DNA of 60,275 nt. It comes from Candidatus Enterococcus testudinis (GTDB lineage Bacteria; Bacillota; Bacilli; Lactobacillales; Enterococcaceae). The stretch spans positions 1,512,186 through 1,572,460 of the forward strand of contig NZ_NGKU01000001.1 in NCBI RefSeq assembly GCF_002140915.1, given 5' to 3'. A program made the position numbers and the translations under genes. The notes beneath the pieces are model-generated. The model was not told the DNA's origin, made no database searches, and worked only from the letters and a program-made list of their open reading frames with translations. Position 1 is the stretch's first letter; every line of letters begins with the position of its first letter. Positions 4,187-12,167 of the stretch are shown here, piece by piece.

Positions 4187-4217
4187 TTGACTGAGAGCGT
4201 ACTCTCAGGTTTATCGT
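4187..4217 (+). promoter_or_regulatory. MerR-type promoter of the SDR gene
   Basis: TTGACT (4187-4192) and TATCGT (4212-4217) have a 19-bp spacer that carries the palindrome CTGAGAG-CGTA-CTCTCAG. It is one of five near-identical promoters in this window, all likely controlled by the MerR protein at 6284. Confidence 0.8.
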
Positions 4218-4251
4218 ATTGTAGTTAAATAAAATATGGAGGTATTTCTAG

Positions 4252-4995
4252 ATGTCAGTCAAAAACAAAGTTATCATAATTACGGGTGCTTCTTCAGGTA
4301 TTGGAGAAGCAACGGCAGAGCTTTTAGCAAGTAATGGGGCAAAAGTTGTCTTGGCTGCTAGAAGAGAAGAACGGCTTTCAAAAATTGTAGAGAGTATCAA
4401 AACAGAAGGTGGAGAGGCTAGTTATAAAGTAACGGATGTAACGAAACAAGAATCTGTTCAAAAATTAGTTGATTTTGCTATTGAAAAGTATGGGAAATTA
4501 GATGTTATATTTAATAATGCAGGAATTATGCCTACTTCACCAATAAGCTCATTACAAGTAGATGAATGGAAAAAAACAGTAGATATTAATTTGATGGGAG
4601 TATTATATGGTGTTGCTGCAGTTATGCCGATTTTTACTCAACAAAAGCATGGACAAATTATCACGACATCATCTGTTGCAGGAATAAAGTCATTTGCTGG
4701 CTCAGGTGTTTATGGTGCAACTAAGTTTGCAGTAAGAAACCTAATGGAAGTCATCCGAATGGAAAGTGCTCAAGAAGGTACAAATATCAGAACAGCAACT
4801 CTATATCCAGCCGCTATCAATACTGAACTTTTGGATACAATCACTAATAAGGCTGCAAAAGAAAGAATGACTGAGCATTATAATAAGGTTGGAATTACTC
4901 CGGATGCTGTTGCAAGAGTTGTTTTCTTTGCAATAGATCAACCAGAAGATGTAAATGTTAATGAATTTACGATATATCCAACGAAACAAGTTTGA
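4252..4995 (+). CDS. Short-chain dehydrogenase/reductase
   Basis: This 247-residue classical SDR is a soluble NAD(P)-dependent oxidoreductase of alcohols or carbonyls. It shows the cofactor loop TGASSGIG (residues 11-18), the structural NNAG (88-91), catalytic Ser near 141 and the Y-x-x-x-K pair at Y154/K158 (VYGATK). Acidic and basic residues after the second strand (AARREER) favour NADP. The start follows ATGGAGGT. A 19-bp-spacer MerR promoter directly upstream places it in the electrophile or aldehyde stress regulon. The substrate cannot be told from sequence. Confidence 0.9.
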   Translation: MSVKNKVIIITGASSGIGEATAELLASNGAKVVLAARREERLSKIVESIKTEGGEASYKVTDVTKQESVQKLVDFAIEKYGKLDVIFNNAGIMPTSPISSLQVDEWKKTVDINLMGVLYGVAAVMPIFTQQKHGQIITTSSVAGIKSFAGSGVYGATKFAVRNLMEVIRMESAQEGTNIRTATLYPAAINTELLDTITNKAAKERMTEHYNKVGITPDAVARVVFFAIDQPEDVNVNEFTIYPTKQV

Positions 4996-5057
4996 TGAAA
5001 AAAGGATTAGGTGCAGATGGCAGAGGTGGTCAATTTTGGATGCCGTATTCAACAGGA

Positions 5058-5098
5058 AAACACACTACAGATACTCTAATTCTGTAGTGTGTTTGTTT
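5058..5098. terminator. Bidirectional terminator
   Basis: AAACACACTACAGA (5058-5071) pairs perfectly with TCTGTAGTGTGTTT (5081-5094), with a T-run to the right and an A-run to the left. It separates the convergent SDR and cupin genes. Confidence 0.85.
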
Positions 5099-5104
5099 TA
5101 CTAT

Positions 5105-5512
5105 TTATGGTAGCTTATTATATTCCTCAACATTTACTGGTTCCATCCAGTCGGTACCACCATTTTCAATATTAGTCGTGATAGAAATATGAGTGAACCA
5201 ACTATCATTTGCAGCGCCATGCCAGTGTTTAACATTCATTGGAATTTGGACGACATCACCCTGAGACAGTGCTTGTGCTTCCTTACCTTCTTCTTGGTAC
5301 CAACCTCTGCCATCTGTAACAAGAAGAATTTGTCCTCCTTTGTGTGAGTGCCAATTATTCACACAGCCAGGAGCAAAAGTAATATTGCTTGTAGGACAAT
5401 TTAAATCATTTTTCGGTACCAACGGTTGACGATAAACTTCTCCATTAAAATAAGGGCTATCAAAAAGTTCTCCTAATGCAAAAACAGGACTACTATCTGG
5501 TTGCTTTGTCAT
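5105..5512 (-). CDS. Cupin-domain protein
   Basis: This protein of 135 residues is a single small-barrel cupin. The metal-binding motifs are seen: motif 1 NNWHSHKGGQILLVTDGRGW (two His plus later residues) and motif 2 GDVVQIPMNVKHWHGA (His). Such proteins bind a divalent metal and may be isomerases, dioxygenases or sensors. The usual start is ATG 5512, since AAAGGAAG lies 9 nt upstream; the TTG at 5530 overlaps that ribosome site. Transcription comes from its own 19-bp MerR-type promoter. Cupins of this type often sit beside SDR and CMD genes, as here. Confidence 0.85.
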   Translation of the reverse strand: MTKQPDSSPVFALGELFDSPYFNGEVYRQPLVPKNDLNCPTSNITFAPGCVNNWHSHKGGQILLVTDGRGWYQEEGKEAQALSQGDVVQIPMNVKHWHGAANDSWFTHISITTNIENGGTDWMEPVNVEEYNKLP

Positions 5513-5544
5513 GTAAAATCTTCCTTTCAAATCAAGTTACCTTA

Positions 5545-5575
5545 AATATACTCTTGATAGTACACTCTCAGTCAA
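5545..5575 (-). promoter_or_regulatory. MerR-type promoter of the cupin gene
   Basis: On the minus strand, TTGACT (5575-5570), a 19-bp spacer with GAGAG...CTATC, and TATATT (5550-5545). One half-site differs from the consensus (CTATC for CTCTC). Confidence 0.75.
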
Positions 5576-10019: not shown

Positions 10020-10026
10020 TAATTGG

Positions 10027-10041
10027 TTGAAAACGCTTGTT
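10027..10041. promoter_or_regulatory. cre-like site (catabolite control)
   Basis: TTGAAAACGCTTGTT matches the CcpA consensus core TGAAAACGCTT but not its last CA. The position between glucosidase and PTS genes fits carbon catabolite repression. Confidence 0.55.
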
Positions 10042-10175
10042 TCGTTGTATTTAGGATGGTACTGTTGGTTTACAAATTGAAGGCGTCATACTTTGCGCAG
10101 AGTAGCCTTTTTTGATTATTCCTTGTTCTATTCAGCTGAAACAAGAGATTTTCTAAAAAGAAAAGGAGAAAAAAG

Positions 10176-12074
10176 ATGAGTAGAAAGTACGAAAAGCTTG
10201 CTAAGGATATTGTTGACAATGTCGGTGGTATTAGTAATATTGAATCACTTCATCACTGTCAAACAAGACTTCGTTTTAAACTAAAAAATAATAGCTTAGC
10301 TGATAAGGAAACGATTTCTGAATTAGATGGTGTCCCAAAAGTATTGATCAATGGAGGAATGTTTCAAGTTGTTATAGGTATGCATGTAGCCGAAGTTAAT
10401 GAAGAGGTTGAGAAGTATATGGCTTCGAAAGGTTTCACTGGCGGAAACACTTCAGGACAATCTGACTCTGATGAAAAGAAGAAACCATTAGATGTAGTTG
10501 CCGATTTTGTTTCAAGTATTTTTTCTCCAATCATTCCTGCTCTAGCAGGTGCAGGAATGGTAAAAGCATTTTTAGCTATTCTAGTTACTTTCAATTTAGT
10601 AGATCCTGCAAATCAGACCTACGTTATCATTAATATGATAGGAGATGCGACATTTGCATTTCTACCAATTTTACTTGGTTTTACTACTGCTCAAAAATTA
10701 AAGGTGAACCCATACCTTGCTGCTGTAGTAGCAGGAATCATGGTTCATGCAACTTGGGGAGGTCTAGTCGAAGCAGGAAATCCTGTGGATTTATTTGGAT
10801 TCTTACCGCTATATTTGGTTCGTTATACGAACTCAGTTATTCCTATAATTTTAGTTGTATTAGTACAAGCACCAATTGAAAAATTCTTGAATAAGATTGT
10901 TCCGAAAGCTTTAAGACTCGTTTTTGTTCCTATGATTCTGTTTATGGTAATGGGTGTTTTAGCTCTTTCAATCATTGGACCAGCGGGAGATTATATTGGT
11001 GCCATCTTTACTTCAGGTTTCACATGGTTGAGTGAAAATGTAAGTTGGGCGCCTGCTTTAGCTATGGGAGGACTATACTCGTTATTAGTTATATTTGGAT
11101 TACATCATGGTTTAGCTCCGCTTGGATTCATACAATTATCTCAAATGGGATACGACTCAATCTTTGGACCCGGTGTATTATTAGCTAATGTTGGGCAAGG
11201 AACAGCTTCGCTTATTGTTGGTCTTTTATCAAAAGATTTGAAGACTAAGCAAATTGGTACTTCAGCTGGTATTACAGGTTTAATGGGGATTACTGAACCA
11301 GCATTATATGGTCTAAATGTTCCTAAAAAATATCCATTGATCGCTGGTTTAATTGGAGGAGCAGCTGGAGGGCTATTTGCTGGAATTACAGCAACAAGAC
11401 GCTTCGCAACAGGGTCTTCTGGATTGCCAGCTGTAGTCATGTATATTGGTGATAATTCGATGCGCTATTTTTATCAAATTCTAATTGCTTTAGCAATCAC
11501 TATTACAGTATCAGCTATCGCAACAGTAGTTTTGTTCAAACGATATGATGGTAAAGAAGAAACTGATAAGAATGTGAAAAAAGTGGACTCAGAACCAATT
11601 ATTTCTAATGATGACGTTACAATTACCAGTCCTGTAAATGGAAGAGTAATTCCCCTGTCACAAGTTAATGATGAAGTCTTCTCAGCTGGATTATTGGGAA
11701 AAGGAGTTGGAGTTGAACCTTCGGATAATCAGATTGTCGCTCCTTTTGACGGGGTAATAAATACCTTATTCCCTACAAAACATGCCATCGGAATCGTTTC
11801 AGATAGTGGAACTGAAGTATTGATTCACATAGGGATTGAGACAGTCGAATTAGGAGGAAAATATTTCGAAACACACGTTAAACAAGGCGATTATGTTAAG
11901 CGAGGACAATTATTGGTCACGGCTGATTTTAGAAAAATAAGCGAGGCCGGTTACAATACTCAAATTCCAGTTGTTATCATAAACTCAAATGATTATGAAA
12001 ATATAGAGCCAGTCAATATCAGTAGCATTCATATCAACGATTTATTGATGAAGGTTCATCCCAAGCTAGTTTAA
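10176..12074 (+). CDS. bglP: PTS beta-glucoside transporter EIIBCA
   Basis: 632 residues in one chain: EIIB with the phosphocysteine C28 (SLHHCQTRLRF), a membrane EIIC (about residues 100-465), and a C-terminal EIIA with the phospho-His H551 (VLIHIGIETVELGG). It imports and phosphorylates beta-glucosides and hands them to the GH1 enzyme encoded divergently. AAGGAG precedes ATG 10176. A terminator follows directly. Sugar specificity within the BglP/BglF group cannot be told. The trio with the RpiR gene is a complete catabolic unit lying inside the MerR regulon. Confidence 0.92.
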   Translation: MSRKYEKLAKDIVDNVGGISNIESLHHCQTRLRFKLKNNSLADKETISELDGVPKVLINGGMFQVVIGMHVAEVNEEVEKYMASKGFTGGNTSGQSDSDEKKKPLDVVADFVSSIFSPIIPALAGAGMVKAFLAILVTFNLVDPANQTYVIINMIGDATFAFLPILLGFTTAQKLKVNPYLAAVVAGIMVHATWGGLVEAGNPVDLFGFLPLYLVRYTNSVIPIILVVLVQAPIEKFLNKIVPKALRLVFVPMILFMVMGVLALSIIGPAGDYIGAIFTSGFTWLSENVSWAPALAMGGLYSLLVIFGLHHGLAPLGFIQLSQMGYDSIFGPGVLLANVGQGTASLIVGLLSKDLKTKQIGTSAGITGLMGITEPALYGLNVPKKYPLIAGLIGGAAGGLFAGITATRRFATGSSGLPAVVMYIGDNSMRYFYQILIALAITITVSAIATVVLFKRYDGKEETDKNVKKVDSEPIISNDDVTITSPVNGRVIPLSQVNDEVFSAGLLGKGVGVEPSDNQIVAPFDGVINTLFPTKHAIGIVSDSGTEVLIHIGIETVELGGKYFETHVKQGDYVKRGQLLVTADFRKISEAGYNTQIPVVIINSNDYENIEPVNISSIHINDLLMKVHPKLV

Positions 12075-12081
12075 CATTTTT

Positions 12082-12117
12082 AGAGAATCCCTTTGTTATT
12101 TTGGGGTTCTCTTTTCT
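12082..12117 (+). terminator. Rho-independent terminator
   Basis: AGAGAATCCC (12082-12091) pairs with GGGGTTCTCT (12103-12112), followed by TTTTCTCTTT. Confidence 0.8.
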
Positions 12118-12136
12118 CTTTATTGGAATTTATTTG

Positions 12137-12167
12137 TTGACTTAGAGTATACTCTCAAGCTTATTCT
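12137..12167 (+). promoter_or_regulatory. MerR-type promoter of the reductase/CMD/transporter operon
   Basis: TTGACT (12137-12142), a 19-bp spacer with TAGAGTATACTCTCAAG, and TATTCT (12162-12167). It has the best consensus of the five sites. Confidence 0.85.

Follow-up and report, generated by a model that had tools for sequence, protein, structure and literature searches.

A Cys-bearing MerR regulator and five promoters with a common putative operator in one gene cluster of Candidatus Enterococcus testudinis

Introduction

In a 60,275-nucleotide stretch of the Candidatus Enterococcus testudinis genome (assembly GCF_002140915.1, contig NZ_NGKU01000001.1, positions 1,512,186 to 1,572,460 of the forward strand; hereafter the window, the coordinates of which are used throughout), a gene for a MerR-family regulator stands among genes for oxidoreductases, a cupin, a lipoprotein and transporters. 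The locus raises the question of whether these genes are run as one network by that regulator and, if so, to what kind of compound it responds. In the MerR family, according to PMC9909328, a promoter spacer of 19-20 bp sets the -35 and -10 boxes too far apart, and they come into register once the activated dimer has kinked the DNA. An original prediction, made from the sequence alone, had proposed five promoters of this geometry around the regulator gene, together with a complete detoxification regulon. No paper on this cluster was found in the open-licence PMC literature.

Results

Five promoters with one geometry and a common dyad

Both direct reading of the sequence and a scan of the window located all five of the predicted promoters, of the form TTGACT-19 bp-TATNNT, at the expected positions:

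4187-4217, plus strand: MerR-type promoter/operator 1, short-chain dehydrogenase/reductase (SDR) gene; TTGACT-19-TATCGT (pattern and matrix scans)
5545-5575, minus strand: MerR-type promoter/operator 2, cupin gene; 19-bp spacer (pattern and matrix scans)
6213-6243, minus strand: MerR-type promoter/operator 3, gene for a protein resembling glucose-6-phosphate dehydrogenase (G6PD); 19-bp spacer (pattern scans)
6844-6874, plus strand: MerR-type promoter/operator 4, lipoprotein gene and, by inference, the RpiR gene; 19-bp spacer (pattern scans)
12137-12167, plus strand: MerR-type promoter/operator 5, genes for an NAD(P)-binding reductase, a carboxymuconolactone-decarboxylase-family (CMD) protein, and AEC and MFS transporters; 19-bp spacer (pattern scans)

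Six matches to TTGACT-N17..20-TATNNT were obtained in the window where 0.96 were expected, a number reached in none of 100 shuffles. The sixth match (4231-4262, minus strand) was dropped: it has a 20-bp spacer, overlies the start of the SDR gene and displays no dyad by eye. The five sites have in common the block TTGACT-[TG]-AGAGT-NN-ACTCT-C-A-[AG]-G and, as is typical of the MerR family, each carries a dyad within its spacer, here of exactly 19 bp. The shared dyad of the original prediction is indeed present and could be refined to a core, AGAGT-NN-ACTCT, centered between spacer positions 7 and 8. The full core is found only in 12137, the sites at 4187, 5545, 6213 and 6844 being one base off each. 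A weight matrix was derived from these five sites themselves.

The motif in the genome and in relatives

A genome-wide search for the dyad, set beforehand as a possible refutation of the prediction, left it standing: at up to two mismatches, TTGACTNAGAGTNNNCTCTCAAG has five matches in the 3,202,475-base genome, all of them within the cluster. At three mismatches one extra match appears (C1:2171449), the reversed control likewise giving one. The bare palindrome TTGAGAGN4CTCTCAA (three mismatches) was rejected as a genome-wide marker; with 92 matches against 62 in the reversed control it is unspecific.

Among 105 genomes of the family, TTGACTNAGAGTNNNCTCTCAAG at no more than one mismatch occurs in two, the organism's own and that of Enterococcus sp. 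HY326 (G092). With E values of 1e-32 or better, 10 of the 105 have a match to the MerR protein, and identity exceeds 52% in the same two alone (100% and, in HY326, 76%). Such a coincidence of motif and close MerR orthologue has a chance of 1 in 5460, if the genomes are taken as independent. Five congeners (G001-G005) contain no close copy of the regulator (best matches 31-46%) and, save for one site in G005, no cluster motif at up to two mismatches. The search at the level of the order used an even draw of 395 genomes, HY326 not among them; its only other match, in G145 (TTGCCTAAGAGTTGCCTCTCAAG), was discarded, its -35 box being spoiled. A plasmid search with the cluster DNA gave no match.

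The HY326 locus (L041) contains relatives of the SDR, cupin, G6PD-like, MerR, lipoprotein, RpiR, glucosidase, phosphotransferase system (PTS), reductase, AEC and MFS genes in nearly the same order. The dyad stands in the 19-bp register before the SDR, reductase, lipoprotein and G6PD-like genes (matrix scores 33-41, the next best being 15). Over the first 23 bases the G6PD-like and reductase operators are each identical at 21 positions, and the lipoprotein and SDR operators each at 19, the last (L041:1260, minus strand) having an off-consensus -10 (TGTGCT). In total, 80 of the 92 bases of the four pairs (87%) are identical, compared to 58/160 and 54/160 (∼35%) in the 40-base flanks. The SDR unit lies at the opposite end of the cluster in HY326 and has kept its operator all the same. 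Before the HY326 cupin gene only a degenerate dyad is seen by eye, with TTTACT and a 20-bp spacer; alignments also make the operator blocks stand out, except for the cupin, whose dyads the alignment fails to pair. The two loci differ further in that HY326 has no CMD gene between the reductase and AEC genes, and its AEC relative is in two frames.

That the five promoters arose by chance or from base composition, or are functionless copies of one promoter, is scarcely credible. The DNA is AT-rich, and the window has no excess of ordinary promoter-like hexamer pairs over shuffles (49 versus 47.8), as such an origin would allow; the shuffling result, the genome-wide confinement of the sites to the cluster, and the preservation of the operators between two species amid diverged flanks all argue against it.

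The regulator belongs to the Cys-bearing NmlR/AdhR clade

The protein under consideration is encoded as follows:

6284-6742, minus strand: MerR regulator of the Cys-bearing NmlR/AdhR clade, 152 amino acids, single Cys53 (Pfam, PDB matches, alignment and tree; 76% identical in HY326)

Its N-terminal winged helix-turn-helix is recognized by Pfam MerR_1 (6e-16) and MerR (4e-13), both above their cut-offs. The PDB search ranked 5d90, 5d8c and 5e01 highest. Chain 5e01 bears the name HI_0186, which we take to be the Haemophilus NmlR, and the segment CLKNTGMS is in register with it. Among 22 aligned MerR proteins (a row from G005, L011, had no alignable frame and was left out), Cys53 is common to 19, including a gonococcal protein that we took as NmlR, its record stretch bearing no annotation; the other three have D, Q or H at this position. 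Cys53 thus falls in the same column as the gonococcal Cys. The response to formaldehyde depends on the equivalent residue, Cys54 in Haemophilus and Cys52 in Bacillus subtilis AdhR, according to PMC4776306 and PMC8879981. The tree splits the 19 Cys-bearing rows, the gonococcal one among them, from the three Cys-less rows at 100/100; it is midpoint-rooted, does not order the rows inside the groups, places the gonococcal row on a long branch and has no row for B. subtilis AdhR. Alignment, PDB matches and tree together bear out the earlier view of one NmlR/AdhR-like MerR with a single Cys.

Related sites and other MerR regulators

A looser pattern, TTGACN4AGYNNRCTN8TAN3T, matches eight sites in the genome, the five and three more, and none in the reversed control. 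Two of the additional sites (C1:1180682 and C1:2989642) lie near MerR paralogues and the third, C1:1539314, corresponds to 27129-27159 (minus strand) of the window. This last site (TTGACTTAAAGTCCACTTCAACCTATACACT), again with 19 bp, stands before a zinc alcohol dehydrogenase gene (26056-27102, minus strand); frames starting much like this dehydrogenase adjoin the MerR of G029 and of G078.

The same pattern was found in 78 of the 105 family genomes, as compared to 12 in the reversed control, once each; since it is so widespread, the operator is of a kind already known. HY326 has 15 such sites, the most of any of these genomes. The near-constant part is AGT-NN-ACT, while the two bases ahead of it differ among regulators. 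ATAGT-type sites were found beside the MerR of G029, G040 and G078, and no such site was found near that of G052 or G053. At the MerR-SDR pair of G003 and G001, the window matrix detected no site and no strong palindrome was found; a loose scan of G003 (L038:8325) gives a 19-bp pair, TTGACC..TACAAT, facing the SDR gene, with a different and weaker dyad. Six plasmid-borne stretches (L055-L060) encoding a 42-50% identical MerR were also scanned, and in five of them the dyad of a 19-bp site is centered where expected; the scan was loose, with many chance matches, and sites were kept by dyad center and place:

L055, Monoglobus: 19-bp site before genes for an alcohol dehydrogenase (ADH), a flavodoxin, a cupin and an aldo-keto reductase (AKR)
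L056, Peptoclostridium: 19-bp site before a flavodoxin-family gene
L057, Priestia: 19-bp site 1.8 kb from the MerR gene, before an NTF2-SDR-AKR-ADH row
L058, C. difficile: site before an SDR gene, dyad center one base off
L059, Lactococcus garvieae: 19-bp site before an SDR gene
L060, Niallia: 19-bp site; the stretch is not annotated

In these and two further Bacillota stretches (L033 and L035, where ADH-like frames adjoin the MerR), a 42-53% identical MerR has reductase-type neighbors, as here, and a 19-bp TTGACT/A-type site with an AGT-NN-ACT-like core lies near the MerR gene or the reductase unit. They differ from the present cluster in that one site was seen per stretch, mostly with AAAGT, GGAGT or ATAGT half-sites rather than AGAGT.

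One possible alternative is that operators are shared among MerR paralogues, and that another of these, such as C1:1181777, handles or co-controls the TTAGAGT-type sites at 6213 and 12137. Besides the three additional sites, of which C1:1180682 has the left half TTGACTTAGAGT in common with 6213 and 12137, it can draw on a pattern seen in all six genomes of the genus, each of which has a TTAGAGT-type 19-bp site at a distance of ∼1.1 kb from a MerR of the C1:1181777 kind (28-32% identical to the window MerR; only for the own-genome copy was absence of the Cys checked). However, the right halves differ (for example, CTCCAAG versus CTCTCAAG), near-exact sites occur only alongside a MerR of the window type, and the congeners, which have such paralogues, lack the cluster motif as described above. 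We therefore regard this sharing as improbable, and assign to the pairing of the MerR encoded at 6742-6284 with the five sites a probability of roughly 85%, judged from sequence comparison.

The regulator gene itself appears to have a separate arrangement:

6795-6823, minus strand: inferred ordinary merR promoter, TTGTAA-17-TAAACT, picked by eye and matching the consensus only weakly
6768-6785, minus strand: degenerate dyad before merR, candidate autorepression operator; in both species 8-9 nucleotides after the -10 of a promoter-like pair with a 17-bp spacer

This layout, in which the dyad stands downstream of an ordinary promoter with a 17-bp spacer, somewhat favors repression by MerR of its own gene. 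In G029 and G040 one operator seems, by eye, to serve both activation and autorepression.

Several observations weigh against the pairing or its parts. Taken alone, the merR-proximal dyads are not significant, 72 and 68 of 500 shuffles being as good in the two species; they are weak by this measure, so that autorepression is a tentative proposal. The matrix scores of the five sites hold by construction, the matrix having been built from them, and the HY326 SDR site is missed by the looser pattern on account of its off-consensus -10. The presence of further MerR paralogues and of the three looser sites makes cross-talk possible. The five units contain no alcohol dehydrogenase, the usual target of NmlR/AdhR. 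Finally, the window MerR scores 73 bits with the NCBIfam NmlR equivalog (NF041849), the cut-off of which is 175 bits, and was for this reason placed in the Cys-bearing NmlR/AdhR clade and not called NmlR itself. This cut-off was passed in none of the six genomes searched and none of 14 control genomes; the best match in the own genome, C1:1181777 (142 bits, also below it), is one of the Cys-less proteins on the other branch of the tree. With this model, the Cys-bearing MerR proteins of the genome reach 87 bits at most, less than two Cys-less ones (142 and 109 bits), and the name NmlR in NF041849 may cover two branches.

Genes and transcription units of the cluster

The genes of the cluster are listed below, with E values for Pfam and PDB matches and identities to the HY326 relative:

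4252-4995, plus strand: SDR family oxidoreductase (Pfam adh_short, 2e-57; 80%)
5105-5512, minus strand: cupin, TM1010-like and also 4bif-like (PDB 2f4p, 2e-33; 4bif, 1e-22; 79%)
5604-6182, minus strand: 192-amino-acid protein, resembling only the NAD-binding domain of G6PD (Pfam G6PD_N, 3e-4)
6905-7414, plus strand: lipoprotein with a lipobox-like LSAC (by eye) and a cyclophilin-like domain (Pfam Cyclophil_like2, 9e-30; 53%)
7448-8365, plus strand: RpiR-family regulator (Pfam HTH_6 and SIS; 70%, same order and strand)
8406-9908, minus strand: 6-phospho-beta-glucosidase of family GH1 (84%); no MerR site of its own found by window matrix scan
10176-12074, plus strand: beta-glucoside-type PTS with EIIB, EIIC and EIIA (75%); no MerR site of its own found by window matrix scan
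12200-12834, plus strand: NAD(P)H-binding (NAD_binding_10) reductase gene in two frames, 12200-12511 and 12610-12834, the pieces searched apart
12854-13177, plus strand: CMD protein, 107 amino acids (Pfam CMD, 4e-23, in the longer frame 12791-13174; PDB 4g9q, 1e-44)
13245-14156, plus strand: AEC-family transporter (Pfam Mem_trans, 1e-30; HY326 relative in two frames)
14180-15394, plus strand: MFS transporter (Pfam MFS_1, 1e-28; 52%)

The nearest PDB chain of the cupin is TM1010; 4bif is presumably a hydroxynitrile lyase. Membership of the hydroxynitrile lyase family is not claimed, the score with the corresponding NCBIfam equivalog (NF049940, (R)-mandelonitrile lyase) being below the cut-off (121.7 versus 140 bits). 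The G6PD-like protein, at 21.9 bits just below the G6PD_N cut-off of 22.1, matches frames of 500-550 amino acids in other genomes. It is only ∼30% (31%) identical to its HY326 counterpart (L041:10524-11117), which also lies behind a MerR-type promoter. The broken reductase gene stands behind an intact-looking promoter, and its HY326 relative is a single frame of 218 amino acids.

As to the regulon that had been called complete, five units led by MerR-type promoters can be read from the sequence, with the reservation that the reductase of the fifth is in two frames. Its two exporters are present as genes, yet neither has a MerR site of its own and both lie behind a terminator-like hairpin at 13195-13217 (consensus scan). 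The gene list was also partly incomplete: the RpiR gene, which starts 33 bases past the lipoprotein gene on the same strand (41 in HY326), may be co-transcribed with it from the 6844 promoter, and the beta-glucoside block (7448-12074) had been left unaccounted for.

This block raises the possibility that the cluster serves the use of aryl-beta-glucosides, the aglycone being freed in the cell, sensed by MerR and then converted or exported, while RpiR feeds back on uptake; such a role would add to the MerR network described above rather than exclude it. The PTS, 6-phospho-beta-glucosidase and RpiR genes are retained as a block within the cluster in members of two genera, at 70-84% identity in HY326, and in each the RpiR gene follows the lipoprotein gene; the cupin is related to 4bif, and in G001 (L039) a different PTS/glucosidase pair lies near the MerR-SDR pair. 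Such bacteria commonly carry beta-glucoside PTS genes, so the adjacency in G001 may be due to chance. Moreover, no MerR site was found before bglA or bglP by window matrix scan, and G003 (L038), with the same MerR-SDR pair, has no bgl genes within its 16-kb stretch. On balance we consider this role possible but doubtful.

Genomic setting

The GC content of the cluster, 0.349, is lower than that of the part of the window beginning at 15401 (0.403), and acquisition by transfer is likely. A transposase pair (2642-3843, plus strand), presumably of IS3 type by its layout, lies beside the SDR end. A tyrosine integrase (17346-18673, plus strand), in two overlapping frames for the arm/SAM part and the catalytic part, may mark the border of an inactive mobile element. 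A tRNA-anchored island was discarded, no tRNA being present in the window. At the left window edge (about 4-111, minus strand) a minus-strand open reading frame 4125 codons long was recorded; a very long gene may reach in here from outside. Further to the right, 27287-30223 (plus strand) encodes a 978-amino-acid protein with Ser/Thr-rich repeats and a terminal LPNTG-type cell-wall anchor (by eye).

Discussion

The five sites, their geometry, exclusivity and conservation, and the clade and Cys of the regulator are confirmed by genome comparison, and a network under one regulator is well supported. In the mechanism that we propose, a MerR dimer would bind the dyad within the 19-bp spacers; in the uninduced state the over-long spacer would keep the five promoters nearly silent. 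An electrophile would then act on Cys53, a step that we regard as fairly probable, and the bound dimer would kink and untwist the spacer until the -35 and -10 boxes fit RNA polymerase. Activation by distortion is suggested by the geometry and by what PMC9909328 states for the family. The SDR, the cupin, the G6PD-domain protein, the lipoprotein (with RpiR) and the reductase-CMD unit (with the transporters) would thereby be turned on together. The merR gene would be transcribed from an ordinary promoter with a 17-bp spacer, and the dyad downstream of this promoter would allow MerR to limit its own supply.

The inducer would be an electrophile, most likely an aldehyde or other carbonyl. A set made up of an SDR, a reductase, a TM1010/4bif-like cupin, a CMD protein and transporters suggests the removal of a carbonyl or related electrophile; of the earlier proposal, detoxification of an electrophile or ring compound, the second half stems solely from the name of the CMD family. 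A CMD-family gene, yraC, belongs to the B. subtilis AdhR regulon, which responds to formaldehyde and methylglyoxal (PMC4776306).

That regulon is the closest known system. According to PMC4776306 and PMC11577753, AdhR (YraB) is an NmlR-clade MerR with one key Cys and more than one target unit, controlling adhA, yraA and yraC. The present cluster differs from it in having no thiol-dependent dehydrogenase or YraA-type protein, and in gathering five units in one place: instead, an SDR, a cupin, a G6PD-domain protein, a lipoprotein and perhaps RpiR are found. To NmlR of Neisseria and Haemophilus the regulator is tied by 46% identity to the gonococcal protein, by its best PDB matches and by the aligned Cys, and DNA distortion, described for the family in PMC9909328, is here proposed from the geometry. 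It is longer at the C-terminus (152 amino acids versus 128-137 in the NmlR PDB chains) and, whereas NmlR is divergent to adhC-estD (PMC4776306), it would act at five distinct operators and perhaps at a sixth before merR.

A more elaborate and rather unlikely scenario is a "sweet poison" circuit: the PTS would import a plant glucoside, the glucosidase would free a reactive aglycone, possibly of cyanohydrin type and handled by the cupin, the Cys53 MerR would induce the five detoxification and export units, and RpiR, expressed from the 6844 promoter, would adjust uptake. In the open-licence PMC literature, judged by title and the start of the abstract, no paper was found that joins beta-glucoside use with such a regulon.

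The pairing of this MerR with the five sites thus represents a regulator matched to its operator by genome comparison alone, which makes a small stress regulon checkable. The kind of regulator and operator is already known. Regulators of the NmlR/AdhR type, it is suggested, would also run regulons of SDR, cupin and CMD proteins, beyond the defence against formaldehyde by thiol-dependent dehydrogenases for which they are known, and the conserved beta-glucoside uptake genes within the cluster point to a plant-derived inducer.

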